64,000 bases of DNA from Candidatus Crickella equi. GTDB lineage: Bacteria; Bacillota; Clostridia; Peptostreptococcales; Anaerovoracaceae. Below, in pieces: positions 404 to 17,679 of this stretch (positions are counted from its first letter, which is position 1; each line of letters begins with the position of its first letter). The notes under the pieces are model-generated. The model saw only the letters and a program-made list of their open reading frames with translations. It was not told the origin of the DNA and ran no database searches. The stretch spans positions 1 to 64,000 of the forward strand of contig JAGHUP010000014.1 in assembly GCA_018064755.1 (NCBI GenBank), given 5' to 3'. The position numbers and the translations under genes were made by a program.

Positions 404-1069
404 CTATTTAATCTTTTCTATTACCAGCAGTACGTGTCCGGAGATTTCCTCTGCTGCATTTTCAACCTGCACTACTCTCTTGAGTTGTCCTCCGAACTTC
501 TTTAAAGCTTTAGCAGCTTCATCGAGTTCTTCCTGATAGTTCTCCCCTTTGTAGGAAATGAAGTATCCTCCCTTCTTTACAAACGGCAGACACCATCCCG
601 ATAAAGTTGATAGATTAGCCACCGCCCTAGATACACAAATATCTGACTGAGCAGCATACTCTGGCTTTCTAGCAATTTCCTCGGCCCTTGCATGTAGAGT
701 TGAAAGATTTGAAATCCCTAGAGTTTCTGCAAATTCATCTATTACCTTAAGCCGCTTCAAAGTCGCATCCATTAGAATGAATTTCTTCTCTGGACTTACA
801 ATTGCAAGGAGTGCTCCAGGAAATCCTGCGCCTGTTCCAACATCCATTACAGACTCAGCATCCTTATATTCAGGAAGACTACAGATAGCAAGCGAATCTG
901 CTATATGCTTTTGTACTGCCTCATCTCTATCATTAACTGCAGTGAGATTAATATGTTGATTACGGTCAAGTACCATATCAAGATAAGCGATTAGTTTATC
1001 TGTCTTCTCTTCTCCATAATCGAACATTAGTTCTTTTATGTACTTGTCTGTTGTTTCCTTAGTTGCCAT
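404..1069 (-). CDS. rsmG: 16S rRNA (guanine-N7) methyltransferase RsmG
   Basis: This 221-aa protein is a class I SAM-dependent methyltransferase of the GidB family, which in known members methylates G527 (E. coli numbering) of 16S rRNA. The SAM-binding motif VGTGAGFPG is visible, as are the family segments NLTAV and SRAVANL. The start at 1069 was chosen because AAGGA lies 8 nt upstream and the protein then begins MATKETTDKY at normal family length; a longer reading frame extends back into mnmG but has no homologous sequence. The gene overlaps the mnmG 3' end by 11 nt and is last in the mnmE-mnmG-rsmG operon. Loss of this enzyme is known to give low-level streptomycin resistance. Confidence 0.95.
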   Translation of the reverse strand: MATKETTDKYIKELMFDYGEEKTDKLIAYLDMVLDRNQHINLTAVNDRDEAVQKHIADSLAICSLPEYKDAESVMDVGTGAGFPGALLAIVSPEKKFILMDATLKRLKVIDEFAETLGISNLSTLHARAEEIARKPEYAAQSDICVSRAVANLSTLSGWCLPFVKKGGYFISYKGENYQEELDEAAKALKKFGGQLKRVVQVENAAEEISGHVLLVIEKIK

Positions 1070-2939
1070 TTCTGTATTCCTTCTCAAGCCATACGAGCAA
1101 GACATTAATGTCTGCTGGAGATACTCCAGAGATACGGCTCGCCTGTCCAACTGTAATTGGTCTAATCTTGGAGAGCTTCTGCTGGGCCTCAATTCTTAGT
1201 CCATTTATCTTAAAATAGTCGAGATCATCGCGCAGTTTCTTGGTCTCAAGTTTGCGCATTTTTTCAACCTCATGTATCTGTTTTCTGATGTATCCGGCAT
1301 ACTTGATTTCAACCTCAACCTCAGTCTTTTCAATGGCTGTAAGCTCTGGTCTGTCTGGATCAAGGTCCGCGATACCGTCATATGTATTCTCCGGTCTACC
1401 GAGCAAATCATATAGCGACACACCCTGCTTTCTTACAGTCTTAAGTCTCTCAAGCTCATTGTCAACGTGCTGCTTTTTGATCAAATATTTCTGATATCTT
1501 TCCTCAGAAACGGAACCATATTCATAGCCAATTTCAGTGAGTCTTCTATCTGCATTATCCTGTCTGAGCAGCAATCTATACTCTGCTCTTGAGGTCATAA
1601 TTCTATATGGTTCATTGGTTCCCTTGGTTACGAGATCATCAATCAACACTCCAATATATGCTTGATCTCTACCGAGAACCAGAGCTTCTTTTCCTTGAAT
1701 TAATCTAACCGCATTTATTCCTGCAATTAAGCCCTGCGATGCTGCTTCCTCATATCCGGAGCTACCATTGAATTGTCCCGCGCAGAACAGTCCACCAATG
1801 ATCTTACTCTCAAGAGATGGTCTCATAGACAGCGGATCAATGCAGTCATATTCGATGGCATAAGCAGGCTTAACAATTGTTGCGTGTTCAAGTCCTGGAA
1901 TAGTTGCATAGAATGCATGCTGGACGTCTTCAGGCAGACTTGAGGACATGCCCTGAATATACATCCAATCGGTCTCAAGTCCTTCTGGCTCAACGAATAG
2001 CTGATGCCTCTCCCTATCCTGGAACCTCGCAATTTTATCTTCAATTGATGGGCAGTATCTTGGTCCAACACCTACGATATTGCCTGAATACATTGCTGAT
2101 TTCTCGATATTATCAAGGATAATTTTGTGAGTCTCTTTATTGGTATACGACAGCCAACAAGAAATCTGGTCGATATCATATTCCTTTCCTTCGTTCATGA
2201 AGCTGAATGGAACGACAACATCATCACCCTTCTGTTCCTTCATCTTGGAATAATCGATGGTATCACGGAGCATACGAGCAGGAGTTCCTGTCTTGAATCT
2301 TCTCATAGGGAATCCATCTATATATAGATTCTCCGCAAGTTTGCAAGAAGGTCTTAATCCTGCAGGTCCCGATACGGTTACATCATCTCCGATGAAGATT
2401 TTGCCGCCGAGGAACGTGCCTGTGCAGATAATGACACAGCTTGCAGGGTAAACATTTCCCTCACCAATTACTCCAACGATGGACTGCTTGCCATCATCTT
2501 TATCCTCAATAATAAGCTCTGTTATCTCTTCAACCTTAAGGTCAAGATTTGCCTGATTTTCAATGGTTTCAAGCATTACATCATGGTAGCGATGCTTGTC
2601 GGCTTGTGCTCTTAATGAGTGAACGGCAGGGCCCTTGGAAGTATTCAACATTTTGGTCTGAATGAAGGTCTTATCAGTTGCAAGACCCATCTCTCCACCA
2701 AGAGCGTCAATCTCGCGAACGAGGTGTCCTTTGCCGGTTCCTCCAATGGAAGGGTTGCAAGGCATCATGGCAACAGATTCAATATCTGTACAAAACATTG
2801 CTGTCTTCTGACCCATTCTGGCCGCAATAAGTCCGGCCTCGCATCCCGCGTGACCGGCACCAATGACAACTACGTCATACTTCGCAGATTCAGGAACCTG
2901 CGCCGGATATTCACTTATCTGATCAGACTTTAAATGCAT
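1059..2939 (-). CDS. mnmG: tRNA uridine-5-carboxymethylaminomethyl modification enzyme MnmG (GidA)
   Basis: This 626-aa FAD protein works with MnmE to install the cmnm5 group on wobble U34 of tRNAs. The FAD-binding GAGHAG motif is at residues 27-32, followed by the family signature CNPSIGGTGKGHLVREID, and the length is normal. The N-terminus is about 15 residues longer than many homologues, and I see no alternative start closer to the FAD motif. The ATG follows the mnmE stop codon with no spacer, so translation is probably coupled; the upstream ribosome site (GGGTAAG) is weak. The C-terminal helical domain, thought to contact MnmE and tRNA, is complete. Confidence 0.96.
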   Translation of the reverse strand: MHLKSDQISEYPAQVPESAKYDVVVIGAGHAGCEAGLIAARMGQKTAMFCTDIESVAMMPCNPSIGGTGKGHLVREIDALGGEMGLATDKTFIQTKMLNTSKGPAVHSLRAQADKHRYHDVMLETIENQANLDLKVEEITELIIEDKDDGKQSIVGVIGEGNVYPASCVIICTGTFLGGKIFIGDDVTVSGPAGLRPSCKLAENLYIDGFPMRRFKTGTPARMLRDTIDYSKMKEQKGDDVVVPFSFMNEGKEYDIDQISCWLSYTNKETHKIILDNIEKSAMYSGNIVGVGPRYCPSIEDKIARFQDRERHQLFVEPEGLETDWMYIQGMSSSLPEDVQHAFYATIPGLEHATIVKPAYAIEYDCIDPLSMRPSLESKIIGGLFCAGQFNGSSGYEEAASQGLIAGINAVRLIQGKEALVLGRDQAYIGVLIDDLVTKGTNEPYRIMTSRAEYRLLLRQDNADRRLTEIGYEYGSVSEERYQKYLIKKQHVDNELERLKTVRKQGVSLYDLLGRPENTYDGIADLDPDRPELTAIEKTEVEVEIKYAGYIRKQIHEVEKMRKLETKKLRDDLDYFKINGLRIEAQQKLSKIRPITVGQASRISGVSPADINVLLVWLEKEYRNGN

Positions 2940-4331
2940 TTACTTACCCAAACAGAACTTGGAGAATACTGCGTCAATTACGTCATCTCCAACTTCTTCT
3001 CCAATAATATATCCGAGTTCATTGAACGCGTAATGCGTTGATAATTCAACGACTTCAAACGGTTCGCCGTTCTCGAGAAGGGAAATTGCTTCGCCAATAT
3101 TGTGACTTGCTGACTTCAGCAATTTCACGTGTCTTTCATTAGTAATGATGTTAGATTCTCTTGTGCTGATGCTACCGAGTTCAAACATCTCAGTGATGGT
3201 ATCTGTTACAGCCTTGGCTGCATCAATTGCATTCTTGCCAAGTAGAGAAGTGGTAACAACGCTGCAACCATCAATTAGATTGCGTACGTCGGACTCACTT
3301 ACGACTTCACCAAGGTCTGTTTTGTTGATGACAACGAGAATTCGTTCGCCATTCATCTCTGTGATGAATTTCAATATCTCATCATCGGAAGGGTCGAGGT
3401 CCTTGCTACCATCGATAACGAGCATGACCATATCAGCAGCTGCAATAGCGCGCTCGGTTCTCTCGATACCAATCTTCTCAACTTGATCTGTTGTCTCTCT
3501 GAGTCCAGCGGTGTCGACCAAAACAATTGGAATTCCACCGAGTGTAGCGCTTTCCTCGACAGTGTCTCTGGTAGTTCCAGGAATGTCGGTTACGATAACT
3601 CTTCCTTCGCCAAGGAGGGCATTCATAAGTGAACTCTTACCTACGTTAGGTTTACCAACGATGGCAATATGAATTCCTTCGCGAGCAATGCGTCCTATTG
3701 ATGCTGTATCAAGAAGATCATCAACATCATTCAGGACATATCTCAATTCATTCGCAACTTCACTGTTTTCTGTATCCTCAATATCCTCATCAGGATAATC
3801 AATATCTACTGCCATATGCGCAAGGATATCCAGCAGGTTCTGTCTGATATCTTCGATTGCTGCACTAAGACGTCCATCGCGCTGTCTCTCAGCAATCTCA
3901 AGGGACATATCACTCTTAGCCTTGATAATATCTATAACAGCTTCGGCCTGAGAGAGATCCATCTTGCCGTTAAGAAAGGCGAGTTTGGTGAATTCGCCAG
4001 GCTCAGCCATACGCATTCCATCATATCCGCCATTCAGCACAGATCTCAGTATTTCCTTGAGCGAAACATTACTGCCATGAGCCTGAATCTCCAGCATATC
4101 TTCGCCAGTATAGGAATTAGGACCCTGCATGTACAGGAAGAGACCCTCGTCGATGATTTCACCGTCGAGTCCAGTTATCTTGCCAAAATAAGCGTGGCGT
4201 GCCTCGGGAGTTTCCGGACAACCATGCATCATTTTGTGCATGACGTCCAGAGAAGCTGGGCCGCTTACTCTGACAATTCCTATTCCACCTTCGCCTGGTG
4301 CTGTTGATATTGCTGCAATAGTCTCTGCCAT
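2940..4331 (-). CDS. mnmE: tRNA modification GTPase MnmE (TrmE)
   Basis: This 463-aa protein is the GTPase partner of MnmG in U34 modification. It has the N-terminal formyl-THF-binding domain (EGGIGIVRVSG near residue 15), a helical domain and an inserted G domain with the P-loop GKPNVGKS at 226-233, DTAG at 273-276 and NKTD. The C-terminus is FCLGK, the conserved C-x-GK tail of the family. It is the first gene of the leftward operon with mnmG and rsmG. In most Firmicutes jag lies immediately upstream of mnmE; here that place is taken by deoC-udp and then dnaN. Confidence 0.96.
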   Translation of the reverse strand: MAETIAAISTAPGEGGIGIVRVSGPASLDVMHKMMHGCPETPEARHAYFGKITGLDGEIIDEGLFLYMQGPNSYTGEDMLEIQAHGSNVSLKEILRSVLNGGYDGMRMAEPGEFTKLAFLNGKMDLSQAEAVIDIIKAKSDMSLEIAERQRDGRLSAAIEDIRQNLLDILAHMAVDIDYPDEDIEDTENSEVANELRYVLNDVDDLLDTASIGRIAREGIHIAIVGKPNVGKSSLMNALLGEGRVIVTDIPGTTRDTVEESATLGGIPIVLVDTAGLRETTDQVEKIGIERTERAIAAADMVMLVIDGSKDLDPSDDEILKFITEMNGERILVVINKTDLGEVVSESDVRNLIDGCSVVTTSLLGKNAIDAAKAVTDTITEMFELGSISTRESNIITNERHVKLLKSASHNIGEAISLLENGEPFEVVELSTHYAFNELGYIIGEEVGDDVIDAVFSKFCLGK

Positions 4332-4363
4332 AATTTACCTCATAAACGCATAAATCTGAAAAT

Positions 4364-4372
4364 ATAATACCA
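4364..4372 (-). promoter_or_regulatory. Extended -10 promoter of mnmE
   Basis: On the minus strand TGgTATTAT forms an extended -10 element about 35 nt upstream of the mnmE start codon. The -35 region is weak, which fits an extended -10 promoter. It is back to back with the deoC promoter. Confidence 0.55.
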
Positions 4373-4392
4373 CATTTTAGTTCTTCAATAAA

Positions 4393-4421
4393 TTGTATTG
4401 TTCATTACATTGTGATATTGT
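4393..4421 (+). promoter_or_regulatory. deoC-udp promoter
   Basis: TTGTAT (4393-4398), a 17-nt spacer and TATTGT (4416-4421) preceded by TGa, giving an extended -10. The predicted start near 4428 leaves a short leader with AAGAGGT before the deoC ATG. The 11-mer TGTGATATTGT recurs exactly at the recF promoter. Confidence 0.65.
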
Positions 4422-4443
4422 GGAATCAAGAAAAGAGGTAATT

Positions 4444-5106
4444 ATGGATAATAAAGAATTATTAAAACACGTAGATCACACACTGCTCAGTCAGACAGCA
4501 ACTTGGAAGGAAATTCAAGCTATCTGCGATGACGGAATGAAATATGAAACAGCTTCTGTATGTATTCCACCTTCATACGTTGAAGAGGCTAAGAAATATG
4601 TCGGCGACAAACTAAAGATATGTACAGTTATAGGATTTCCTAATGGCTATATGACTTCAGAAACCAAAGCTTTCGAAGCAGCTGATGCAATAATGAAGGG
4701 TGCCGACGAAATTGATATGGTTATTAATCTTGGTTGGGTTAAGGATCAGAAGTGGCAGGAAGTTCTTCGCGAACTCGAAACTATGAGAAATGTCTGCAAG
4801 GATGTTGTTCTCAAAGTAATAATTGAAACTTGCTACCTTACAGATATTGAGAAGGAGAATCTCTGTAAACTTGTTACTGAATCCGGTGCAGATTATATTA
4901 AGACTAGCACTGGTTTTGGAACTGGTGGAGCTACAATTGCTGACGTTAAACTTTTTGCTAATAATATTGGACCGGAACTTAAGATTAAGGCGGCCGGTGG
5001 TATTACCGGACTAGAAGATGCTGAAAAATTTCTTGCAGCTGGAGCTGATAGACTTGGAACCAGCCGTATAGTTAAAGCTGTTAAAGCAGCAGAAAAGGAT
5101 AAATAA
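4444..5106 (+). CDS. deoC: Deoxyribose-phosphate aldolase DeoC
   Basis: This 220-aa class I aldolase splits 2-deoxyribose-5-phosphate into glyceraldehyde-3-phosphate and acetaldehyde in deoxynucleoside breakdown. Catalytic residues are visible: D91 in EIDMVINLG, the Schiff-base lysine K153 in YIKTSTGFG, and K182 in KAAGG. The start at 4444 follows AAGAGGT by a few nt; an in-frame start 51 nt earlier would add residues unlike the family and precede the predicted transcription start. It is followed after 1 nt by udp, and the two form a nucleoside-salvage operon. Its strand is opposite to mnmE, dnaN and dnaA, so it faces the leftward replication fork. Confidence 0.95.
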
Positions 5107-5107
5107 A

Positions 5108-5884
5108 ATGATTGATTACACTGAAGGACTTGGAATCCAATATCATATTGGACTGAAAGAAGGGGATGTTGGTAAATATGTCATTTTACCAGGTGACCCA
5201 AAACGTTGTGCCAAGATTGCAGAATATTTTGATGATCAGGTTCTCGTAGCAGATAATCGAGAGTTTGTAACTTATACCGGTTACATTGACGGAACTAAAG
5301 TTAGTGTATGTAGTACTGGTATTGGTGGACCTTCCGCATCAATTGCTCTTGAAGAGCTCGCCAATGTTGGAGCTGATACTTTCATTAGAGTAGGTACTTG
5401 CGGCGGAATGCAGATGGACGTATGTGGTGGCGATATTGTTATTGCTACTGGAGCAATCCGTATGGAAGGAACTTCCAAAGAATACGCACCAATCGAATTT
5501 CCGGCAGTTCCCGACTTAACAGTAACTAATACTTTGGTAGAAACAGCTCGAGAAATGCAGGTTCGTTATCATGCCGGAATAGTTGAATGTAAAGATTCAT
5601 TCTATGGACAACATCAACCGGAAAAACATCCTAATGGCGCAGAGCTGATGTTTAAATGGGACGCATGGCTTAAACTTGGATGTATTGCTAGCGAAATGGA
5701 ATCTGCAGCATTATTCGTAGTTGGTGCATATAGAAATGTGAGAGTAGGATCATGTTTCTTATGTGTAGCTAACCAGGAACGTGCCAAAGCAGGAAAACAT
5801 AATGCGCAAGTTCACGATACTGACTTAACTATTAGAGTTGCAATAGAAACTATTAAAAATTTAGTAAAAATTGATAATAAATAA
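5108..5884 (+). CDS. udp: Uridine phosphorylase
   Basis: This 258-aa member of the nucleoside phosphorylase family I cleaves a nucleoside with phosphate to the free base and (deoxy)ribose-1-phosphate. The sequence matches uridine phosphorylase more closely than DeoD-type purine enzymes: PGDPKR for phosphate, [17 protein letters not shown] and EMESAAL for the ribose. Coupling with deoC fits use of deoxyribose phosphate as a carbon source after phosphopentomutase, which is not in the window. Substrate preference (uridine, thymidine or both) cannot be read from sequence. Confidence 0.88.
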
Positions 5885-5897
5885 TTAAAAATAATAG

Positions 5898-5934
5898 AAA
5901 AACGGTCATTTATTATAAAAATGACCGTTTTTTT
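5898..5934. terminator. Bidirectional terminator between udp and dnaN
   Basis: The stem AAACGGTCATTT / AAATGACCGTTT is followed by a T run on the plus strand and preceded by an A-rich run on the left. It can therefore end udp transcription from the left and dnaN transcription from the right. Confidence 0.85.
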
Positions 5935-5965
5935 AATGAAAATTTTTATATTATTTTAAATTTTA

Positions 5966-7069
5966 TTAATTAATTCTAATAGGTAATACTAAATATGCAT
6001 ATTTTTCACCCTTAAGTGGCTTAATAATGCATGGACTAATTGAATCTTTAAGATTCATAATTACTTCTTCATCCTCAATTACACTAAATACATCTTTAAG
6101 ATATTTAGCATTAAGTCCAATCTGAAGATCATTACCATCCTTGATAATTTCAATCTTTTCTTCAATATTTCCTTCTTCACTAAGAGAATTAATTGTAATA
6201 ATATCTCCTTCAATATTAAATTTAATAAGATTATTATTCTGAACTGATGCAAGAAGAGAAGCTCTATCAATACTCTTTAAGAGATCATCTCTCTTAACTC
6301 TTACATTAATATCTCCCTGCTTATTAAGAATTCTTTCATAATCAATATATTTTCCAGAGAAAGTATTAATAATTACCTTATAATTATCAAACTTCATTAC
6401 TACTTTCTTATCAATTATTTCAAGAGACATCTTATCTTCACCATCATCTGAAATAATCTTAGCTACTTCATTTACTAATTTTGCAGGAATAACTACATTT
6501 ACATCTGCATCATTATTAACTTCAACATTATAAGTAGCAATTCTAAATGGATCTACACCAACCATCTTGATGTTTCCATTCTTAATCTCAAGTAATACTC
6601 CAGTAAGAATTCCATTAAACTCATCAGTTGAAGCACTGAATGCTGTTTTTCTAATAATCTTCTTAATATCTTCCTTACTAAGTAAGATTACATTTTCACC
6701 TTCATTAAGTTTAATCTTAGGAAATTCTTCTGACTTGAAACAAACTAACTCAGAATTAGAACCTGCACACTTAATATTAATCTTAACTTTGGCAGGATCA
6801 TAATCAATCATTACCTCATCTTCAGGAAGCTTATTAACAATGCTACCAAAAAGTTTTGCTGGTACTACGAAAGCTCCTGATTCTTCACACTGTACATTAA
6901 TTACACTTTCAATTGTAATTGTTGTATCAGTAGCAGTCATTTTCATCATACCATTTTCAATTTCTACAAGAATTCCTTCTAGTATATTTGAAGTAGTTCT
7001 TGTTGGAACTGCATGAGATAAATTATTAATTGCTTTGTTGAGTTCTGATTTATTTACGTAAATCTTCAT
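5966..7069 (-). CDS. dnaN: DNA polymerase III beta sliding clamp DnaN
   Basis: This 367-aa protein is the ring-shaped processivity clamp that tethers the replicative polymerase. Length, the N-terminal MKIYVNKSELNKAI and the C-terminal YLVLPIRIN are typical. The start has AGGAG 7 nt upstream. It lies downstream of dnaA on the same strand, separated by 152 bp that hold the likely origin unwinding element. The gene is strikingly AT-rich: bases 6181-6240 contain only 9 G or C of 60, against 30 of 60 at 14221-14280 in gyrB. recF, normally downstream of dnaN, is instead on the other side of the origin. Confidence 0.96.
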   Translation of the reverse strand: MKIYVNKSELNKAINNLSHAVPTRTTSNILEGILVEIENGMMKMTATDTTITIESVINVQCEESGAFVVPAKLFGSIVNKLPEDEVMIDYDPAKVKINIKCAGSNSELVCFKSEEFPKIKLNEGENVILLSKEDIKKIIRKTAFSASTDEFNGILTGVLLEIKNGNIKMVGVDPFRIATYNVEVNNDADVNVVIPAKLVNEVAKIISDDGEDKMSLEIIDKKVVMKFDNYKVIINTFSGKYIDYERILNKQGDINVRVKRDDLLKSIDRASLLASVQNNNLIKFNIEGDIITINSLSEEGNIEEKIEIIKDGNDLQIGLNAKYLKDVFSVIEDEEVIMNLKDSISPCIIKPLKGEKYAYLVLPIRIN

Positions 7070-7080
7070 ATGAAACTCCT

Positions 7081-7140
7081 ATTTTTATATAAATATATTT
7101 AGTAGTAATAGTAGGTGTTGTTGATAATGTGGATAACTCT
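7081..7140 (-). other. Probable origin unwinding element: DnaA boxes, DnaA-trio run and AT-rich DUE
   Basis: Read from dnaA towards dnaN (minus strand): a perfect DnaA box TTATCCACA (7136-7128), a one-mismatch box TTATCAACA (7127-7119), then CCTACTATTACTACTA (down to about 7101), then a nearly pure A/T stretch (7100-7081). The B. subtilis unwinding region has the same order of DnaA box, CTA/TTA trinucleotide run (DnaA-trio) and AT-rich DNA in its dnaA-dnaN gap. This is inferred from sequence similarity only. Confidence 0.75.
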
Positions 7141-7178
7141 TATAATACTTGAAATATTAAGAGTTATAAGTTATCAAC
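7120..7178. repeat. Nested inverted repeat in the dnaA-dnaN gap
   Basis: An inner perfect 10-bp pair (ATAACTCTTA 7133-7142 and TAAGAGTTAT 7158-7167) is flanked by an outer 8-bp pair (GTTGATAA 7120-7127 and TTATCAAC 7171-7178). The left arms overlap both DnaA boxes. There is no T run, so it is not a standard terminator; it may be an mRNA structure or a DNA element of the origin. Confidence 0.7.
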
Positions 7179-7221
7179 TATGATGATAAATACTACATAA
7201 AACTATGAATAATTATGTGTA

Positions 7222-8562
7222 TTATTTTCTAGTCTGAAGTTTAGCTTTAATTAATTCAATATTAGTCTTTAATTCATTATCATATTTTAAATCATTTTCA
7301 ATTTTTTCAATTGCATGAATAACTGTTGAATAATGACGATTTCCAAATAATTTACCAATCTTAGGGAAAGATAAATCAGTTGTTTCTCTACATAAATACA
7401 TTGCAACTTGTCTCGGCAATGTAATTTCAGCATTTCTCTTAGGTGAATCCATATCAGCAATCTTAATTTTATAATGATTAGCTACAATACTACGGATTCT
7501 TTCTGGAGCAACAGCTTGTTCATTATCCTTAATAATATCTTTAAGAATATTTTTGGCATGATCTACAGTTATTTTTTCACCTAATAATCTAGATAAACCA
7601 ACAACTCTATTATAAGCACCTTCAAGTTCTCTGATATTATCCTTAACCTGATCTGCAATGAGACATAAAACATCATATAAATCTGCATCCATCTCAATAT
7701 CAGACTTTTCCACAAGATTCATAAGAATTGCAACTCTTGTTTCATAATCAGGTTCTTGAATATCAGCAATCATATTCCAACTAAATCTAGTTCTAAGTCT
7801 TTCATCAAGACCTTTAAGATTAACAGGTGGACAATCACTTGTAATTACTATCTGTTTGTTAGCTTGATATAATGCTTCGAATGTATGGAAGAACTCTTCT
7901 TGAGTAGCTTCTTTACCTTCAAGAAATTGAATATCGTCAATTAATAATACATCAACTTTACGATATTTATTTCTAAATGATCTAGTCTTATTATCATTGA
8001 TTGCAGCAATCAGTTCATTAGCAAACATCTCAGTTGAAACATATAAAACTTTAGTTTCTGGATTATTTCTAATGATATGAACACCAATCGCCTGCATCAG
8101 GTGAGTTTTACCAAGTCCAGAGCCACCATATATAAATAATGGGTTATATACATCGCCAGGAGCCTCAGCAACCGCAACGGATACAGCGTGTGCATATTTA
8201 TTACTGTTACCAACAACAAAGTTTTCAAAATTAAATCTAGGATTAAATAATTTCTCCTGATTACTAACATTAGTCATATGAGTTGTATCAATTTTGGAAA
8301 CCTCAAATGACTTCTCATGTTTAATTACAACACGATATGGTTTATCCATACTCTTATTGATTTCATTTTCAATAAGAGGTTGGTAATGATCATTGACATG
8401 CTTAAGCAGCTTGGAATCATTCTTCCAAGCAAGATAAATAATACCTGTATCCTCCTCGATATGATGGATATCTAGAGGAGCTATCCAGGTATTATAACTT
8501 AATGGAGTTGTGTTAGCTTCTAGGGCCCTTAAAGTGGTACCCCATATCTTGTTCTTATCCAA
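7222..8562 (-). CDS. dnaA: Chromosomal replication initiator DnaA
   Basis: This 446-aa AAA+ protein binds DnaA boxes and opens the origin. Visible parts are the N-terminal domain I, a short linker, the AAA+ domain with Walker A GGSGLGKT (146-153) and Walker B LLIDDIQF (about 206-213), and the C-terminal DNA-binding domain with RHYSTVIHAI. The start codon is TTG, chosen because AAGGAG lies 7 nt upstream and the protein starts in register with the family. The promoter and DnaA boxes upstream suggest autoregulation. Like dnaN it is far more AT-rich than gyrB and gyrA. Confidence 0.96.
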   Translation of the reverse strand: MDKNKIWGTTLRALEANTTPLSYNTWIAPLDIHHIEEDTGIIYLAWKNDSKLLKHVNDHYQPLIENEINKSMDKPYRVVIKHEKSFEVSKIDTTHMTNVSNQEKLFNPRFNFENFVVGNSNKYAHAVSVAVAEAPGDVYNPLFIYGGSGLGKTHLMQAIGVHIIRNNPETKVLYVSTEMFANELIAAINDNKTRSFRNKYRKVDVLLIDDIQFLEGKEATQEEFFHTFEALYQANKQIVITSDCPPVNLKGLDERLRTRFSWNMIADIQEPDYETRVAILMNLVEKSDIEMDADLYDVLCLIADQVKDNIRELEGAYNRVVGLSRLLGEKITVDHAKNILKDIIKDNEQAVAPERIRSIVANHYKIKIADMDSPKRNAEITLPRQVAMYLCRETTDLSFPKIGKLFGNRHYSTVIHAIEKIENDLKYDNELKTNIELIKAKLQTRK

Positions 8563-8580
8563 TAGCTATCTCCTTCGATT

Positions 8581-8750
8581 TGTGAACATATTTTACATAA
8601 AGTTATCCACAGTTGCAAAGCCTAAATTTGCATATATTAAGTACATAAAAGGCAGTCAAAAAATAAGTTATCCACATGTTGTTGATAAAGTTGTGAATAA
8701 GTAAAAGGCATACACCATATATTGTGTATAACTTCATTTTTGTGGATATT
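8581..8750. other. oriC: oriC DnaA-box cluster upstream of dnaA
   Basis: Two perfect TTATCCACA boxes (8603-8611, 8668-8676) and four one-mismatch boxes on the other strand (8680-8688, 8692-8700, 8723-8731, 8741-8749) lie in 150 bp, with a weaker match at 8581. They occupy the divergent gap between dnaA and rpmH. With the cluster between dnaA and dnaN this makes a bipartite origin like that of B. subtilis. Genes to the right run rightward and most genes to the left run leftward, consistent with fork direction. Confidence 0.9.
8631..8659 (-). promoter_or_regulatory. dnaA promoter
   Basis: On the minus strand TTGACT (8659-8654), a 17-nt spacer and TATATG (8636-8631). One perfect DnaA box lies just downstream of the predicted start (8603-8611) and another just upstream of the -35 (8668-8676), a layout that suggests DnaA controls its own gene. 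Confidence 0.75.
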
Positions 8751-8798
8751 GTACTAAATTAAGTAACAATACGCTCAGGAACGCATCGGTCGCTAACC

Positions 8799-8827
8799 TT
8801 GACATCTCAAAAGCCTTAAATTATAAT
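8799..8827 (+). promoter_or_regulatory. rpmH-rnpA operon promoter
   Basis: A consensus housekeeping promoter: TTGACA (8799-8804), exactly 17 nt, TATAAT (8822-8827). It leaves a leader of about 75 nt before rpmH. A strong promoter suits a ribosomal protein gene. Confidence 0.92.
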
Positions 8828-8910
8828 GATTTGGCGTATGTGCCCATGGAATTTAGAGGGCACGCAATTATCAAGTTATTACAATATATATTTACAAAGG
8901 AGTTACTGAA

Positions 8911-9045
8911 ATGAAAAGAACATATCAGCCTAAGAAGAGACAGAGACTGAAGGAACACGGATTCCGTAAGAGAATGGCTACTGCTAACGGTAGAAAAGTA
9001 CTTAAGAGAAGAAGAGCAAGAGGAAGAAAGTCCCTCACAGCTTAA
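8911..9045 (+). CDS. rpmH: 50S ribosomal protein L34
   Basis: This gene encodes a 44-aa, very basic protein beginning [20 protein letters not shown] and ending GRKSLTA, the standard L34 length and sequence. AAAGGAG lies 7 nt upstream of the ATG. It is the first gene of the rightward rpmH-rnpA-yidD-yidC-jag operon and divergent from dnaA across oriC, its usual position in bacteria. Confidence 0.98.
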
Positions 9046-9061
9046 TTAAAGGTACTGCTTA

Positions 9062-9403
9062 ATGAGAGATCACAGCGAGCTCACTTTAAGAGAACAAAAC
9101 GATTTTAATAGGGTATACAATCGCGGCAATTCCAAGGGTAGCAAGTATGTAGTTGTTCTATACAATAAGAACAAACTTGGATATTCAAGAGTTGCATTCG
9201 TTGCCAGCAAGAAGGTTGGTAATAGCGTTATGCGTAATAGGTCCAGAAGATTAATGCGAGAAGCATATAGATCTTTCAAGGATAAGATTGTACCAGGATA
9301 CGACATTATATTTGTAGCAAGAAATACTATCGGCGATTGCAAATACGATGAAGTTTCGCGTGCAATGTTCGGAGCAACAAGGGCAGCTGGACTGTTCAAT
9401 TAA
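9062..9403 (+). CDS. rnpA: Ribonuclease P protein component
   Basis: This 113-aa basic protein assists the RNase P RNA in trimming tRNA 5' ends. The family signature is visible as [17 protein letters not shown], containing the RNR motif. It starts 16 nt after rpmH, the usual pairing, with AAAGG upstream. The RNase P RNA gene is not in the window. Confidence 0.96.
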
Positions 9404-9407
9404 GCAA

Positions 9408-9638
9408 ATGAATTTAATAAGTAGATTTTTCAAGAAAATTTTAATCATTATGGTAAGGGGATATCAGATATTCATCTCCCCGCTGCTAGGACCACATTGT
9501 AGGTTTACACCTACTTGCAGTGCGTATTTCATACAGGCAGTAGAGAAGTACGGACCGCTGAAAGGTTCATGGCTGGGAATCAAGAGAATTCTGAGATGTC
9601 ATCCGGGTAATCCCGGTGGATATGATCCAGTACCATAG
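9408..9638 (+). CDS. yidD: Membrane protein insertion efficiency factor YidD
   Basis: This 76-aa protein carries the complete family core: [18 protein letters not shown], then [20 protein letters not shown] with its conserved cysteines and PGGYDP. A short amphipathic or hydrophobic N-terminus precedes it. YidD family members aid insertion of membrane proteins by YidC, and the gene lies between rnpA and yidC as usual. The start at 9408, 4 nt after the rnpA stop, gives the normal length; its ribosome site is weak, so translation may be coupled to rnpA. A longer in-frame extension into rnpA is unlike the family. Confidence 0.93.
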
Positions 9639-9652
9639 AATGGAGAAAACTA

Positions 9653-10411
9653 ATGGGAATTATCGCAAAACCTATCGGACTTCTTCTTAAGTGGATTTAC
9701 ACATTAGTAGGAAGCTACGGCATTGCACTGATTATTCTTACTATTCTGGTAAAGTTAGTACTCTATCCTCTGTATGCAAAGCAGATTAAGACTACTTCAA
9801 GCATGCAGGATATCTCCGAGAAGACTCAGGAGATTCAGAAAAAGTACGCTAACGATCAGGAGAGAATGAATCAGGAAATTCAGAAGATGTACAAGGAGAC
9901 AGGTTTCAACCCTGCATCCGGTTGTCTTCCTATGCTGATTCAGTTCCCAATTATCATGGGACTTTTCGCATTACTGAGAAATCCGATGAAGTACATGCCA
10001 GCTGGCAGTACTATGATTTTCGCTAACCATGAATCCTTCCTCTGGATTAAGGATCTGGCACAGCCAGATATGTGGATTTTGCCTATCCTTGCAGGAGTTG
10101 CAACATACTTCTCATTCAGCCAGAACTCAGCAATGACTGGTCAGGTTGGACCAACTGCAGGACAGACTAAAGCGATGAACGCAATGATGAAGTATATCTT
10201 CCCACTGAGTATCCTCTGGCTCGCAAGATCATATCCTGCAGGCCTTGCAATTTACTGGGCAGGCGGACAGATTATGCAGATCTTCTTCAACTTCAGAATC
10301 AATAAGATGAGAGCAAAGATGAATGAAGAGAGAGAAGAGAAGAAGCGTATTGAAAGAGCAGAAAAGGATCTCTTAAGGAAGAGAAGAGCTAGAATGAAAG
10401 GAAATATTTAA
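9653..10411 (+). CDS. yidC: Membrane protein insertase YidC (Oxa1 family)
   Basis: This 252-aa multi-span membrane protein inserts proteins into the cytoplasmic membrane with or without SecYEG. The first hydrophobic segment is followed by GIALIILTILVKLVLYPLY and a charged cytoplasmic hairpin rich in K and Q (about 40-85), then LPMLIQFPIIMGLFALL and further membrane segments, ending in a strongly basic tail as in Gram-positive YidC. No lipobox is seen, unlike SpoIIIJ of Bacillus. GGAG lies 6-8 nt upstream of the ATG. It follows yidD by 14 nt. Confidence 0.95.
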   Translation: MGIIAKPIGLLLKWIYTLVGSYGIALIILTILVKLVLYPLYAKQIKTTSSMQDISEKTQEIQKKYANDQERMNQEIQKMYKETGFNPASGCLPMLIQFPIIMGLFALLRNPMKYMPAGSTMIFANHESFLWIKDLAQPDMWILPILAGVATYFSFSQNSAMTGQVGPTAGQTKAMNAMMKYIFPLSILWLARSYPAGLAIYWAGGQIMQIFFNFRINKMRAKMNEEREEKKRIERAEKDLLRKRRARMKGNI

Positions 10412-10415
10412 TATA

Positions 10416-11285
10416 ATGAGATCTTCAGAGAAATGGGGAGTCGATGTAGACACTGCCGTTGAACTTGCCTTGAAAGAACTCAAGCTCACTAGAGATGAGG
10501 TTGAAGTCGAGGTTCTGGAGGAGTCAAGTAATGGTTTCCTGGGAATTGGATCAAAGCTTGCCAAAGTAAGAGTTACTGCTCTGAATGACACAGGTAGCAA
10601 TTCTAAGGAAAAGGCTACATTTGATGATATCGACGCAATTCTCGCAAGTCTTCCTGAGAATGCAACTAAGGCGTTGCCTGAAGAAGTTCGTGCTGATTAT
10701 GAAAAGTTCGAACAGGAAGAGAATGAGGATGCACGTGCTAGAGAGAAGGCTGCTGCTAAGGAGAGACGCTCTCGCAGCAAGAAGAAGTACGAGCTTTCCA
10801 TGGAAGATACAATGCTCTATGATGTTAAGAAACTCGACGCAGTTAAGGGACATCCAATTGAGAAGTTCTTAAGAGACATCGCTGAGCAGATGGGCATCAA
10901 CCTTGATTTCGAAGTCAAGGCTAGTGACGAGCTCGTGTTCGTAGATATCACCGGCAAGGACACTGGAACAATTATCGGCAAAAGAGGAGCAACTCTCGAT
11001 GCAGTTCAGTGCCTGGCAAGCTACGTAGTCAACAAGGATGAAAACAAGTACGTAAGAGTTATCCTGGACGCTGAGAACTACAGATCCAAGAGAGAGAAGA
11101 CTCTGGTTAGCCTGGCTAACAGACTTGCAGACAAGGTAGAGAAGACAAGACGTAGTGTTACACTCGAACCAATGAACCCTTATGAAAGAAAGGTTATCCA
11201 CTGCACACTTCAGAATCACCCAAGGGTTAAGACAAGAAGTGAGGGCAAGGATCCATACCGTAAGGTAGTAATCGAAACAAAATAA
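10416..11285 (+). CDS. jag: RNA-binding protein Jag (KhpB/EloR)
   Basis: This 289-aa protein has an N-terminal Jag domain (about 1-50, EEVEVLEE and GFLGIGSKLAKVRV type), a charged linker, a KH domain with the GKRGATLDA loop and a C-terminal R3H domain (RKVIHCTLQNHPRVKTRS). Homologues bind RNA, pair with KhpA and influence cell elongation. It starts 4 nt after yidC and ends the operon at a clear terminator. In most relatives mnmE follows; here the operon ends and the next gene is on the other strand. Confidence 0.94.
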   Translation: MRSSEKWGVDVDTAVELALKELKLTRDEVEVEVLEESSNGFLGIGSKLAKVRVTALNDTGSNSKEKATFDDIDAILASLPENATKALPEEVRADYEKFEQEENEDARAREKAAAKERRSRSKKKYELSMEDTMLYDVKKLDAVKGHPIEKFLRDIAEQMGINLDFEVKASDELVFVDITGKDTGTIIGKRGATLDAVQCLASYVVNKDENKYVRVILDAENYRSKREKTLVSLANRLADKVEKTRRSVTLEPMNPYERKVIHCTLQNHPRVKTRSEGKDPYRKVVIETK

Positions 11286-11288
11286 TTT

Positions 11289-11320
11289 AAAACCCGCAGT
11301 TATCTGCGGGTTTTGTTTTT
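11289..11320 (+). terminator. Terminator of the rpmH-jag operon
   Basis: Stem AAAACCCGCAG / CTGCGGGTTTT with a 4-nt loop followed by GTTTTT. It also lies at the 3' end of the leftward gene at 11319, and the A-rich left side could let it work on both strands. Confidence 0.9.
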
Positions 11321-11756
11321 ATTCATTTTCTTTACTAGGGAATATGAAGTCATAATTGCCGCTAGGGTTCTCATCGTAACCAGTCGCATTACTGTTATCA
11401 GTAGTATTGTTATTATTATATTGATAGTTGTTCTGCTGTTCTTCGGATTTCTTCTCAGCAGCAGTCTTAACCTTGTTGACGTCTTTCTTGAAGTCAATCA
11501 GTATTTCATAGACAGCCTTACGAGTCTTAACTGTTGCAAGCTTGTTCTCCGCTTCTGTAATGAGCTTGTCAATTTCTTCAGCTTCTGCAGCGTCATAATC
11601 GTCAGTGTCTACCATGTTTATTTCTTTAACGGCATCTTTGGATGCGAACTTACCATCAATAATGCTGTATGCCCAACCTCCAGCAACGGCCGAAGCCAGC
11701 ATCAGCACTAAGATTAAGATCAATTTGGCACCCAGGCCACCTCTCTTATTGTTCAT
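11319..11756 (-). CDS. Small membrane-anchored protein with Asn/Gln-rich tail, unknown function
   Basis: This 145-aa protein is not recognised. It has a basic N-terminus (MNNKRGGLGAK), one hydrophobic segment (about 10-30, rich in L, I, V and A), a charged helical middle (about 45-105) and a low-complexity tail rich in N, Q and T. The predicted topology is a single N-terminal anchor with the rest outside. The start at 11756 has AAGGAG at ideal spacing; a longer upstream frame overlaps recF and is not credible. It lies alone on the minus strand at the joint between jag and recF, which are not neighbours in typical Firmicutes, and it opposes the direction of the fork. Confidence 0.75.
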   Translation of the reverse strand: MNNKRGGLGAKLILILVLMLASAVAGGWAYSIIDGKFASKDAVKEINMVDTDDYDAAEAEEIDKLITEAENKLATVKTRKAVYEILIDFKKDVNKVKTAAEKKSEEQQNNYQYNNNNTTDNSNATGYDENPSGNYDFIFPSKENE

Positions 11757-11810
11757 TTTGGTCTCCTTATCTCTCGATGTGAGAACATTGTACCATATTA
11801 TGGAAAAATG

Positions 11811-11819
11811 TGATATTGT
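11811..11819 (+). promoter_or_regulatory. recF extended -10 promoter, near-leaderless
   Basis: TGaTATTGT forms an extended -10 whose last base is 10 nt before the recF ATG. A start 7 nt after the -10 would give a leader of only about 3 nt, and no ribosome-binding sequence is seen. The 11-mer TGTGATATTGT (11809-11819) is identical to the deoC promoter. Confidence 0.55.
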
Positions 11820-11828
11820 AATTGTGTT

Positions 11829-12953
11829 ATGAGAATCAATAATATTCTTCTCCAGAATTTCAGAAATTATTCTAATCTCGAGCTCACATTCAACGAGCAT
11901 CGCAATATTATTGTGGGCGAAAACGCTCAGGGGAAGACTAATTTAATTGAGGCGATATACCTTTCTGCTTTTTCCAAATCGTTCCGTACGAATAATGCCG
12001 GTGATATGGTGAAGTTCGGCGAAGAGCGTGGCCGCGTCAATGTTGATATTAACAGCGAGGACATGGATAAGAATATTGATATCTCAATTCTGACTAATGG
12101 ACGTAAGATGATTAAGAAGGATGGCAAGGCGGTTCGTAGAACTGCAGACCTCCTTAATAATATAGTAGTAATTATCTTCTCGCCGGATGATCTTAGAATT
12201 ATTAAGGATAGTCCAGAGAGAAGACGTGCATATATTAATAGAGAACTTTCGCAAATCAGACCTAAGTACTATGATGTGCTAAAAAATTATTCTGATGTGC
12301 TCAAGCAGAAGAACTCTCTTATCAAGGGGCTGTCCAATTCGCAGTATAGCCGCACCTATAATACAGATATGATGGATGTCTATGATAGACAGCTTGCTGA
12401 CTATGGATATGAGCTCATTAGATATAGGAAAGAATTCGTAGATATGCTTTCCGAGGAGGCTGGCGAGATAATGTCAGCAATCTCAGGCGGCAAGGAAGAT
12501 CTTAAGATAGAGTACAAGACAAGTTGCGATTATATCTCAGCACCTGAAGGCAGAGAGATTATGTTCAAGCAACTGTATCATAATAGACAGAAGGATATAT
12601 ATGCGGGATTTGCAACCCTCGGTCCACACAGGGATGACCTCGAGTTCTATATAAATGGAACAGATGCTAAGAAATATGGATCACAGGGTCAGCAGAGAAC
12701 TATCGCATTGTCGCTCAAGCTCGCAGAGATAAGAATTGCGAAGCAGATTTTGGACGAGTATCCGGTGCTGTTATTAGACGACGTGCTCTCGGAGCTTGAT
12801 CTCGACAGACAGAGGTTCCTGGTCAATCAGATTGATGACGTTCAGCTATTCATAACATCTGCAGAGCTGAATGATGAAGTAATAGAAACGTTACAGGGTG
12901 GCACACTCTTTAGAGTTGAAGAAGGCACAATCACTAAAGTGGATAAATATTAG
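11829..12953 (+). CDS. recF: DNA replication and repair protein RecF
   Basis: This 374-aa SMC-like ATPase helps load RecA at gaps. The Walker A motif GENAQGKT is at residues 30-37, followed by NLIEAIYLSAFSKSFR. The signature YGSQGQQRT and the Walker B region LLLDDVLSELD are near the C-terminus. The ATG at 11829 matches the family N-terminus (MRINNILLQNFRNY), so the lack of a ribosome site is probably real rather than a mis-chosen start. It is separated from dnaN by the origin block, unlike the normal dnaA-dnaN-recF order, and it ends at its own terminator. Confidence 0.95.
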   Translation: MRINNILLQNFRNYSNLELTFNEHRNIIVGENAQGKTNLIEAIYLSAFSKSFRTNNAGDMVKFGEERGRVNVDINSEDMDKNIDISILTNGRKMIKKDGKAVRRTADLLNNIVVIIFSPDDLRIIKDSPERRRAYINRELSQIRPKYYDVLKNYSDVLKQKNSLIKGLSNSQYSRTYNTDMMDVYDRQLADYGYELIRYRKEFVDMLSEEAGEIMSAISGGKEDLKIEYKTSCDYISAPEGREIMFKQLYHNRQKDIYAGFATLGPHRDDLEFYINGTDAKKYGSQGQQRTIALSLKLAEIRIAKQILDEYPVLLLDDVLSELDLDRQRFLVNQIDDVQLFITSAELNDEVIETLQGGTLFRVEEGTITKVDKY

Positions 12954-12973
12954 GTAAATGTTATCAACAATGA

Positions 12974-12997
12974 AAGAGGCTGAGAAGCCTCTTTTTT
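12974..12997 (+). terminator. recF terminator
   Basis: Stem AAGAGGCT / AGCCTCTT with a short loop and a run of T. It lies about 20 nt after the recF stop codon and separates recF from gyrB. Confidence 0.88.
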
Positions 12998-13026
12998 GTG
13001 CATTTAGGCAGGTGAAGAAATGACCG

Positions 13027-13054
13027 TTTCGCAGAAATGTGGCGAAAATTTTCG
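13027..13054. repeat. Palindromes upstream of the gyrB promoter
   Basis: TTTCGC (13027-13032) and GCGAAA (13042-13047) form an inverted pair, and CGAAAATTTTCG (13043-13054) is a perfect 12-bp palindrome overlapping it. They lie 44 bp upstream of the -35 and may be an operator or a curved or supercoil-sensitive element. No known regulator is assigned. Confidence 0.45.
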
Positions 13055-13097
13055 ATTTAAGACAATTTTAATAAAACACAAGATGTTGTGCAAAAGA

Positions 13098-13126
13098 TTG
13101 CAAAAAAGTCGCTTATATGGTAAAAT
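13098..13126 (+). promoter_or_regulatory. gyrB-gyrA promoter
   Basis: TTGCAA (13098-13103), a 17-nt spacer ending TGG, then TAAAAT (13121-13126), giving an extended -10. It leaves a leader of about 95 nt before gyrB with no clear attenuator. From recF to gyrB (12954-13229) only the recF terminator, the palindromes and this promoter are seen. Confidence 0.75.
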
Positions 13127-13226
13127 TTGAGTGAATTATATACGGGCGAAAAGGCGAATTTTTAGAAAAAGCCAGTAATTGCAAGCCCTACAACGTTAAT
13201 AATTAATTCTATATAAAATGAGGTAA

Positions 13227-15158
<1,932 letters not shown>

Positions 15159-15168
15159 GGAAGATATT

Positions 15169-17679
15169 ATGAGTGACATTTTAGACAATTCAAGAATCAT
15201 CGAACATGAAATATACGATGAGATGAAGAACTCGTACATCGACTATGCGATGAGCGTAATCGTTGGACGTGCGCTTCCTGATGTTCGAGATGGATTAAAG
15301 CCTGTTCACCGTAGAATTCTTTACGGAATGCAACAGCTGGGAACAACACCGGATAAGCCTCACAAGAAATCGGCGAGAATCGTCGGTGAGGTAATGGGTA
15401 AATATCACCCACACGGTGACTCCTCCATCTACGATGCAATGGTTAAGCTCGCACAGGATTTCAGTACGAGATACCCACTGGTAGACGGTCACGGTAACTT
15501 TGGTTCCGTGGACGGAGATGGCGCAGCCGCATCGAGATATACAGAGGCAAGAATGTCTCCGTTCTCGCTGCAGATGATAAGAGATATTGAGAAGGACACT
15601 GTTGATTTCGTCGACAACTACGATGGCGAGGAGCAGGAGCCTGTAGTACTTCCATCAAGAGTACCTAACCTCCTGATCAATGGTTCTAATGGTATTGCGG
15701 TTGGTATGGCAACATCCATTCCACCACACAACCTGGGCGAGACTATTGATGCAACTTGCAAGTTAATCGACGAGCCGGATTGCTCAGTAGATGATCTTAT
15801 TAAGATTATTAAGGCACCGGACTTCCCAACAGGAGCAACTATCCTGGGAAGACACGCAGCTGACGAAGCATACAGAACAGGACAGGGTAAGATCAACGTT
15901 CGTTCCGTATGTGAAATCGAAGAAACCAAGCGCGGCAAACTGCAGATTATTGTAAGCGAGATTCCTTATCAGGTTAACAAGGCAAGACTTATCGAGTCTA
16001 TGGCCGAGCTGGTTAAGGATAAGAAGATTGAAGGCATTTCGGATATCCGTGATGAGTCCAATCGTGAAGGAACAAGAATCGTAATTGAGCTGAAGAAAGA
16101 CGTTAATCCTAGCGTTATTCTTAACAGACTTTACAAACATACAGCACTCCAGACATCTATCAGCATGATTATGCTGGCTCTGGTAGATGGAGAGCCTAAG
16201 GTGCTTAACCTCAAGGAGATCCTTGAAGAGTACATCAAGCATCAGAAGATTGTTATTACAAGAAGAACTAAATTCGACCTCGCCAAGGCAGAAGCAAGAG
16301 CTCACATCGTTGAAGGTCTGCTGATTGCCCTTGATAACATTGACGAGGTAATCAAGACTATCAGATCTTCGTACAATGATGCGAAGGAAAAACTGATGGT
16401 GAGATTTGGTCTTAGTGAGATTCAGGCACAGGCTATCCTCGATATGAGACTTGCCAAGCTGCAGGGCCTCGAGAGAGAGAAGCTCGAGAATGAGTACGAA
16501 GAGCTCAAGAAGAAGATTGCTTACTACAAGAGCATTCTTGCTGATGAGCATCTGCTCATGGGAGTTATCAAGGACGAGCTCATCGAGATTAAGGATAAGT
16601 GGGCAGATCCAAGAAGAACTAAGATCGTAGCTGATGATGGCGAGCTGGATGAAGAGGCTCTGATTGATGAAGAGGATGTAGCAATCACACTGACTCACCT
16701 CGGATATGTCAAGAGAGTTCCTATCGACACATACAAAGCACAGCGTCGTGGCGGCAAGGGCATCCAGGGTCTGACAACTAGAGAAAATGACTTTGTTCGT
16801 GACCTCATCATTACAAGCACTCACGATTATCTGATGTTCTTCACAGATATGGGTCGTGTATACAAGATTAAGGCATATGAGATTCCTGAGGCATCAAGAA
16901 CCGCTAAGGGAATTCCAGTAATTAACTTCTTGAATTTGAACAGCACAGAGAGAGTAACTGCAGTAATTCCTATTAAGGAATTCGCAGAGAACCAGTGCCT
17001 CGTAATGGTAACTAAGAACGGTACTATTAAGAAGACACCTCTGAGCGAGTTCGATACTAACCGTAAGACTGGACTCATTGCTATTACTCTGAAGGATGGC
17101 GATAAGCTCATTGCGGTTGCACAGGCAACAGGCAAGGAAAACATCTATGTTGTAACTAGAGATGGTAAGGCTATTGCATTCAGTGAAGACGACGTTCGTC
17201 CAATGGGACGTAATGCCGGCGGAGTAAGAGCTATCCTGCTCGAGGGCGAAGACGAAGTTGTTTCGATGGAACTCGACATTGAGCAGAAGAGAAAGATGCT
17301 CGTTATCACTGAGAATGGATTCGGTAAGAGAACAGCACTTGATGAGTATAGACTCCAGGCTAGAGGCGGTAAGGGTGTAGCAACTTACGACAAGACTAAG
17401 TTCGATAAGACTGGCCGTCTTGTTGGCGCAACTCTAGTTAACGATGAAGACGAAGTTATGGTAATTAATTCCAACGGAATTATTATCAGAATTAGAGCTG
17501 AGGAGGTAAGCAAATCTGGACGTACAACTCAGGGCGTTAAGATTATGAAGGTCGAGAAGGGTAACCGCATCGTTTCATTCGCCAAGGTTGTCGACGAAGA
17601 TGATGCAGTTAAGCCTCAGGTTGCAGAAAAGAACCCTAACATCGGAGAAGACGGAAACGAACAGATGACTCTGGTATAA
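15169..17679 (+). CDS. gyrA: DNA gyrase subunit A
   Basis: This 836-aa subunit breaks and rejoins DNA. The catalytic tyrosine is Y124 in [10 protein letters not shown]. The GyrA box QRRGGKG is present in the C-terminal wrapping domain, which supports gyrase rather than topoisomerase IV. The quinolone-determining positions equivalent to E. coli S83 and D87 are S85 and D89, so no classical quinolone-resistance substitution is seen. A response-regulator gene starts 15 nt after the stop codon with no terminator between, so the downstream two-component system is probably co-transcribed at least in part. Confidence 0.98.

Follow-up and report, generated by a model that had tools for sequence, protein, structure and literature searches.

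Reversed gene order around the replication origin in the main Mogibacterium clade of the Anaerovoracaceae

The genes surrounding the replication origin oriC stand in an unusual order in Candidatus Crickella equi, a Mogibacterium-like member of the Anaerovoracaceae (assembly GCA_018064755.1, 1.39 Mb in 25 contigs, 82% complete). The stretch analysed here, referred to as the window, consists of the 64,000 nucleotides at positions 1-64000 of a 74-kb contig (JAGHUP010000014.1), and gene names at the locus were assigned by NCBIfam models. From left to right, rsmG, mnmG and mnmE (404..4331, minus strand; TIGR00138, TIGR00136, TIGR00450) form a left flank and are followed by a first joint (mnmE/dnaN, 4332..5965), which holds the plus-strand genes deoC (4444-5106, with its ATG at 4444; TIGR00126) and udp (5108-5884; TIGR01718). 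The central block (5966..11285) is made up of dnaN (5966..7069, minus strand; TIGR00663), dnaA (7222..8562, minus strand; TIGR00362), the oriC region (8563..8910) and the plus-strand genes rpmH, rnpA, yidD, yidC and jag (8911..11285; TIGR01030, TIGR00188, TIGR00278, TIGR03592, NF041568), and is reversed relative to most of the family and order genomes mapped below. A second joint (jag/recF, 11286..11828) contains a terminator-like hairpin (11288-11315) and a minus-strand gene for a 145-aa protein (11319..11756), which carries no family name and was characterized through an alignment of clade members. The right flank outside the block consists of recF, starting at 11829, gyrB and gyrA (11829..17679, plus strand; TIGR00611, TIGR01059, TIGR01063). 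This is the order given in the original prediction, which was made from the letters of the sequence; every gene it named is identified by an NCBIfam model, and the coordinates agree. Its claim that the genes stay aligned with the replication forks holds for the core genes, all of which are co-directional, and not for the joint genes, as deoC-udp (left, plus strand) and the 145-aa gene (right, minus strand) both run head-on.

Between dnaA and rpmH, at 8603-8749, lie six DnaA-box matches, two of them exact and the other four differing at one position, and two further matches occur in the dnaA-dnaN gap. The cumulative GC skew, scanned over 2500-13500, reaches its minimum at 8250-8749, and a sigma-70-type promoter with a 12-of-12 match is found at 8799-8827, facing rpmH. 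These signals place the predicted oriC between dnaA and rpmH, inside the reversed segment. Gene order at oriC shows strong conservation and serves both for locating origins and for fixing the polarity of genome maps. The window possesses all the genes of the ancestral cluster, near oriC, but its jag-dnaN segment is reversed with respect to the flanks, and recF-gyrB-gyrA follow jag rather than dnaN.

The original prediction attributed this arrangement to a flip of the jag-to-dnaN block alone and proposed comparing gene order in relatives; the comparison bears it out, with the ancestral order in a genome of the same genus and the window's joints recurring in many others. Stretches around dnaA or recF were compared across genomes of the same genus, family and order, with core genes mapped by hidden Markov models. 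The main map covers 27 dnaA-containing genomes of the genus, 59 further family genera and 19 order outgroups; loci L063 and L073 (each with an additional dnaA but no dnaN) and L082 (a duplicate from genome G029) were omitted before counting. The dnaN|recF joint is present in all 19 order outgroups and in 57 of the 59 other family genera (in G075 the contig stops within dnaN, and G082 is rearranged), and in three of the 27 genus genomes. All three scored joints are ancestral in 40 of the 59 other genera and 14 of the 19 outgroups. Within the genus, G005 retains the full ancestral order with both ancestral joints; G031 retains dnaN|recF, with a run of N masking the genes past rnpA and mnmE-mnmG following it; and G034 also retains dnaN|recF. 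Of the other 24 genus genomes, which lack the joint, 21 have one or both of the window's joints on the contig with dnaA, and 12 have both on a single contig. To the left of dnaN, on the minus strand, mnmG-mnmE are found in 11 of 11 extended left flanks and rsmG in 10 (it is out of reach in G018). On the other side, the next mapped gene after jag is the 145-aa gene or recF in each of the 23 inverted genomes with a contig extending to one of them (21 from the main map and two read later; G019 and G028 are included though they lack dnaA). Four additional genus genomes were examined, of which G255 and G262 have both joints, while in G256 and G257 recF is absent from the 3-4 kb covered past dnaN, and the contigs stop 0.1 and 1.8 kb past jag. 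Judged by coordinates only, mnmE and dnaA share one contig in G258, G259 and G261 in the order that an inversion predicts, and so does the 145-aa gene in G258 and G259. The altered order is thus common to the clade and not peculiar to the source genome.

All inverted genomes fall into one clade, with a local support of 1.0, in a tree built from nine origin-region proteins, which covers 109 of 110 taxa (the remaining one had too few genes). The clade is also recovered with DnaA and DnaN alone (38 taxa), and with eight other proteins from the same 38 taxa, which include 15 of the 24 inverted genomes; in the eight-protein tree, seven rows fill less than half of the columns (G031, 16%). Because the inverted genomes all belong to one clade, one reversal on its stem suffices, and flipping jag-dnaN alone in G005 reproduces the window's order, save for the genes added at the joints. 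With the direction of change read from the outgroups, the jag-to-dnaN segment, including oriC, was therefore very probably inverted once, in the ancestor shared by the main Mogibacterium clade. The proposal that one inversion explains the order is accordingly supported by the ancestral order of G005 together with the single inverted clade.

Several observations weigh against this conclusion. Most of the compared genomes are fragmented, and no DnaA was obtained from 13 of the 47 genus genomes. Neither joint is complete in G003, G020 and G027 (3 of 24), in each of which the 145-aa gene adjoins recF on a separate contig; in G017 and G020 dnaN is at the edge of its contig, and the G032 contig has none; and G007 (5.8 kb) and G020 (3.2 kb) continue past jag to the contig end with no recF or 145-aa gene. 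The genes used for the trees all come from the origin region, and the base of the genus is poorly resolved, the placement of G034 relative to G005 and G031 receiving 0.72 in the 109-taxon tree and less than 80 in the 38-taxon trees. A breakpoint scar was sought, and of 55 inverted repeats the 25 longest include no pair that connects the two joints, the event being old. Finally, G034 has a different order, and its far joint was not found, with no mapped gene in the next 20-kb stretch past jag.

The best-surviving alternative, which is nonetheless improbable, is a history of several events, comprising a larger jag-to-recF flip after which recF moved independently to the gyrB side. Two findings speak for it: G034 reads rsmG-mnmG-mnmE-recF-dnaN-dnaA|rpmH..jag, with the jag/mnmE joint also broken, and recF was re-oriented later within the inverted clade, after parting from dnaN, being reversed in eight inverted genomes (G002, G008, G011, G017, G023, G028, G030 and G262). 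This route costs an extra transposition, whereas G005 yields the window order by one reversal. It also needs G034 to be sister to the inverted clade, a placement that costs 17.9 log-likelihood units in the eight-protein tree and is moderately rejected by the approximately unbiased (AU) test (p 0.016). Close relatives with an intermediate order requiring several events were what the original prediction had looked to as a sign of a different history; G034 is a possible case, and on this test is disfavoured as an intermediate.

The dnaN-dnaA-oriC unit could instead have been acquired horizontally from an AT-rich donor, replacing the resident copy in the opposite orientation, without any inversion in place. 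Base composition is in its favour, as dnaN and dnaA have the lowest and second lowest GC content at third codon positions (GC3; 0.153 and 0.188) of 53 window open reading frames (ORFs) of at least 120 aa, picked mechanically, whose mean is 0.41. The GC3 deficit of dnaA/dnaN is strong across the inverted clade, averaging -0.24 (sd 0.09, n=23), compared with -0.07 in 15 genomes of the X type described below and -0.07 in 64 others; the latter all have the ancestral order except G034 and G082, and there is no value for G032, which has no dnaN on its contig, or for two loci with long runs of N. The sisters G005 and G034 have deficits of -0.03 and -0.04, while G076 and G077, two genomes with the ancestral order, have about -0.25, and the deficit is weak in some inverted genomes (G007, -0.06). 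However, the DnaA+DnaN protein tree places the inverted clade beside G005, G031 and G034, on which ground the replacement was rejected, and rpmH-jag travelled with dnaA-dnaN, as an inversion predicts; a horizontal origin is thus very unlikely. Since the flip happened once, its association with low GC3 is not evidence of cause. An assembly or binning artefact, for which the incompleteness and fragmentation of the source genome might speak, is scarcely credible, as many other genomes have these joints too, with conserved genes on either side.

On the preferred reading, that of one inversion in place, a block of about 5.3 kb (window 5966-11285) was reversed. On the ancestral map of G005, the breakpoints lie about 2.6 kb (jag/mnmE) and about 2.8 kb (dnaN/recF) from oriC. 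Four features of a symmetric, origin-centred inversion are found: oriC lies inside the segment, the breakpoints are nearly equidistant from it, the core genes are co-directional and close relatives have the ancestral order. The recombination step, which we infer, would have had its ends in the jag/mnmE and dnaN/recF gaps, so that both arms would have swapped sides while the core genes kept their fork direction and nearly the same distance from oriC. Strand and oriC distance would hardly have changed because oriC lies within the segment, making the flip close to neutral and hence fixable, a type of change that selection presumably does not remove. The new joints would later have gained cargo, deoC-udp at mnmE/dnaN and the 145-aa gene at jag/recF. 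The near-equal arms in Mogibacterium (2.6/2.8 kb) would also fit an exchange between young sister forks. However, other types of flip in the family are uneven on the G005 map (about 0.15/4.05 kb for the X type and about 6.0/2.8 kb for G082); therefore, fork-symmetric recombination is not favoured as the cause, and a selection filter is preferred over sister-fork exchange.

The original prediction held that both joints carry genes not usually found there, and that the 145-aa gene is an orphan; the second point does not stand. At the first joint, the order mnmE-(deoC/udp)-dnaN is found in all 11 extended left flanks and in G030 and G262, and in G255 with udp only; in G008, mnmE directly adjoins dnaN without deoC-udp. 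The deoC-udp pair runs head-on to the fork in the window, G016 and G018, and co-directionally in the nine other extended flanks, in G030 and G262, and in G027 and G255 (udp only in both). In G005, udp is on a different contig from oriC (deoC was not searched), and deoC-udp therefore probably reached the first joint at or after the flip. Eight genomes (G022, G023, G024, G029, G035, G015, G016 and G018) have extra conserved ORFs (about 6-10 kb) between deoC/udp and dnaN, which to the eye look like genes for nucleoside uptake and salvage (a nucleoside transporter, thymidine kinase and pseudouridine genes). Just past the 3' end of rsmG, the window contains two palindromic parS-like 16-mers (166-181 and 385-400), with one mismatch to the typed consensus and a chance expectation of 0.07 matches. 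Loci L090 (G010:C46) and L094 (G007:C145) contain additional gyrB/gyrA-like copies adjoining gyrBA.

Matches to the 145-aa gene occur in 34 of the 47 genus genomes, G011 having a second, weak one as well, and the gene's status as a true orphan is rejected. Fifteen aligned homologues are 39-51% identical and have in common a basic N-terminus and, as judged by eye, one hydrophobic segment near it; the protein is small and probably membrane-anchored. No NCBIfam model matches, and the window's member has no Pfam match above cut-off. The gene has no match in G005 (99% complete), G031 (65%) or G034 (80%). Among 197 family genomes, 11 match the protein at E 1e-5, four being genus members and seven being weak matches elsewhere; the best outside match (G063, 1.8e-14) is not on the dnaA contig. 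The gene is thus conserved in the inverted clade and most likely came at or after the flip, though it may have distant relatives outside the clade. Five genus genomes (G004, G013, G021, G025 and G026) lack a full dnaA, a recF scoring above cut-off and any clear match to the 145-aa protein, as if the origin region had been lost from their assemblies.

The small S4-domain gene yaaA/rlbA, which the original prediction reported absent from both joints, is indeed not found near dnaN or recF, and this has no bearing on the joints. Strong matches to TIGR02988 (E 5e-20 or better, under the curated cut-off) occur in all six order outgroups examined, and none in 30 family genomes (8 from the genus and 22 others). 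Weak matches in nine of these 30 include none adjoining dnaN or recF; the best (E 3.9e-4, in G070) shares a contig with dnaA but lies about 1.2 Mb away, and the others are off the dnaA contig. The loss is family-wide and older than the flip, and was rejected as a part of it.

Other reversals at the origin are present in the Anaerovoracaceae. The X type, rpmH-recF-dnaN-dnaA|oriC|gyrB, is found in 15 of the 59 other genera (the G121 contig does not include the gyrB side), and corresponds to a reversal of oriC-dnaA-dnaN-recF alone, with breakpoints at rpmH/oriC and recF/gyrB. DnaA-box matches are found upstream of dnaA in 14 of the 15 (none in the 120 bases scanned in G069) and in the rpmH-recF gap in one. 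Like the flip in the window, this reversal spans the origin and leaves core genes co-directional, but its breakpoints differ. A single clade for all 15 X-type genomes is rejected (AU p 2e-60), while one for the 14 without G137 is not (p 0.18); most simply, the type arose at least twice, a single gain followed by reversals being less simple. G082, which reads rsmG-dnaN-dnaA|rpmH..jag-mnmE-mnmG-recF-gyrB, corresponds to an mnmG-dnaN reversal. This reading most simply gives at least four origin-spanning reversals in the family, with G034 probably a fifth. The origin-spanning flips leave the observed core genes co-directional, as any such flip must, while recF flips within one arm do not, and no mapped flip parts dnaA from dnaN. 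The oriC-dnaA-dnaN block might thus be a recurrently flipped unit that reuses the breakpoints jag/mnmE, dnaN/recF and recF/gyrB, an idea we hold only tentatively and at somewhat less than even chance. Separately, a second full-length dnaA without dnaN occurs at L063:2939-4285 (G003:C31) and at L073:922-2268 (G015:C22), possibly on mobile elements carrying their own DnaA.

Symmetric chromosomal inversions centred on the origin are already known, having reportedly been described by Eisen et al. in 2000, and the flip in the window is a small-scale variant. As in those inversions, the segment spans the origin, the arms swap, and fork strand and origin distance are kept; it differs in being only about 5 kb long and in lying within the conserved oriC gene cluster itself. 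Inversion landscapes in the Bacillus-Clostridium group are reported to consist mostly of symmetric inversions, scanned at 10 kb resolution (PMC5850607, Mol Biol Evol 2017). The rearrangements termed RASR by D'Iorio and Dewar 2022 are required to be at least 50 kb long, a length that the block of about 5.3 kb does not reach, and every genome in that study was oriented by dnaA (PMC9584773). These surveys, at 50-kb and 10-kb scale, are unlikely to see a flip this small. No description of the Mogibacterium flip was found in one open-access library, as judged by titles and the starts of abstracts.

Because the flip is fixed in a whole clade, and others occur in the family, orientation of genomes by dnaA should make the rest of the Mogibacterium chromosome look reversed relative to its relatives. 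Repeated small flips with visible breakpoints provide natural material for asking whether inversions centred on the origin owe their frequency to easy formation or to being the only ones tolerated. If the oriC-dnaA-dnaN block is indeed flipped recurrently, comparison, within the same 17 kb, of small flips that span the origin with those that do not could help to tell a mutational bias apart from selection for co-directionality.

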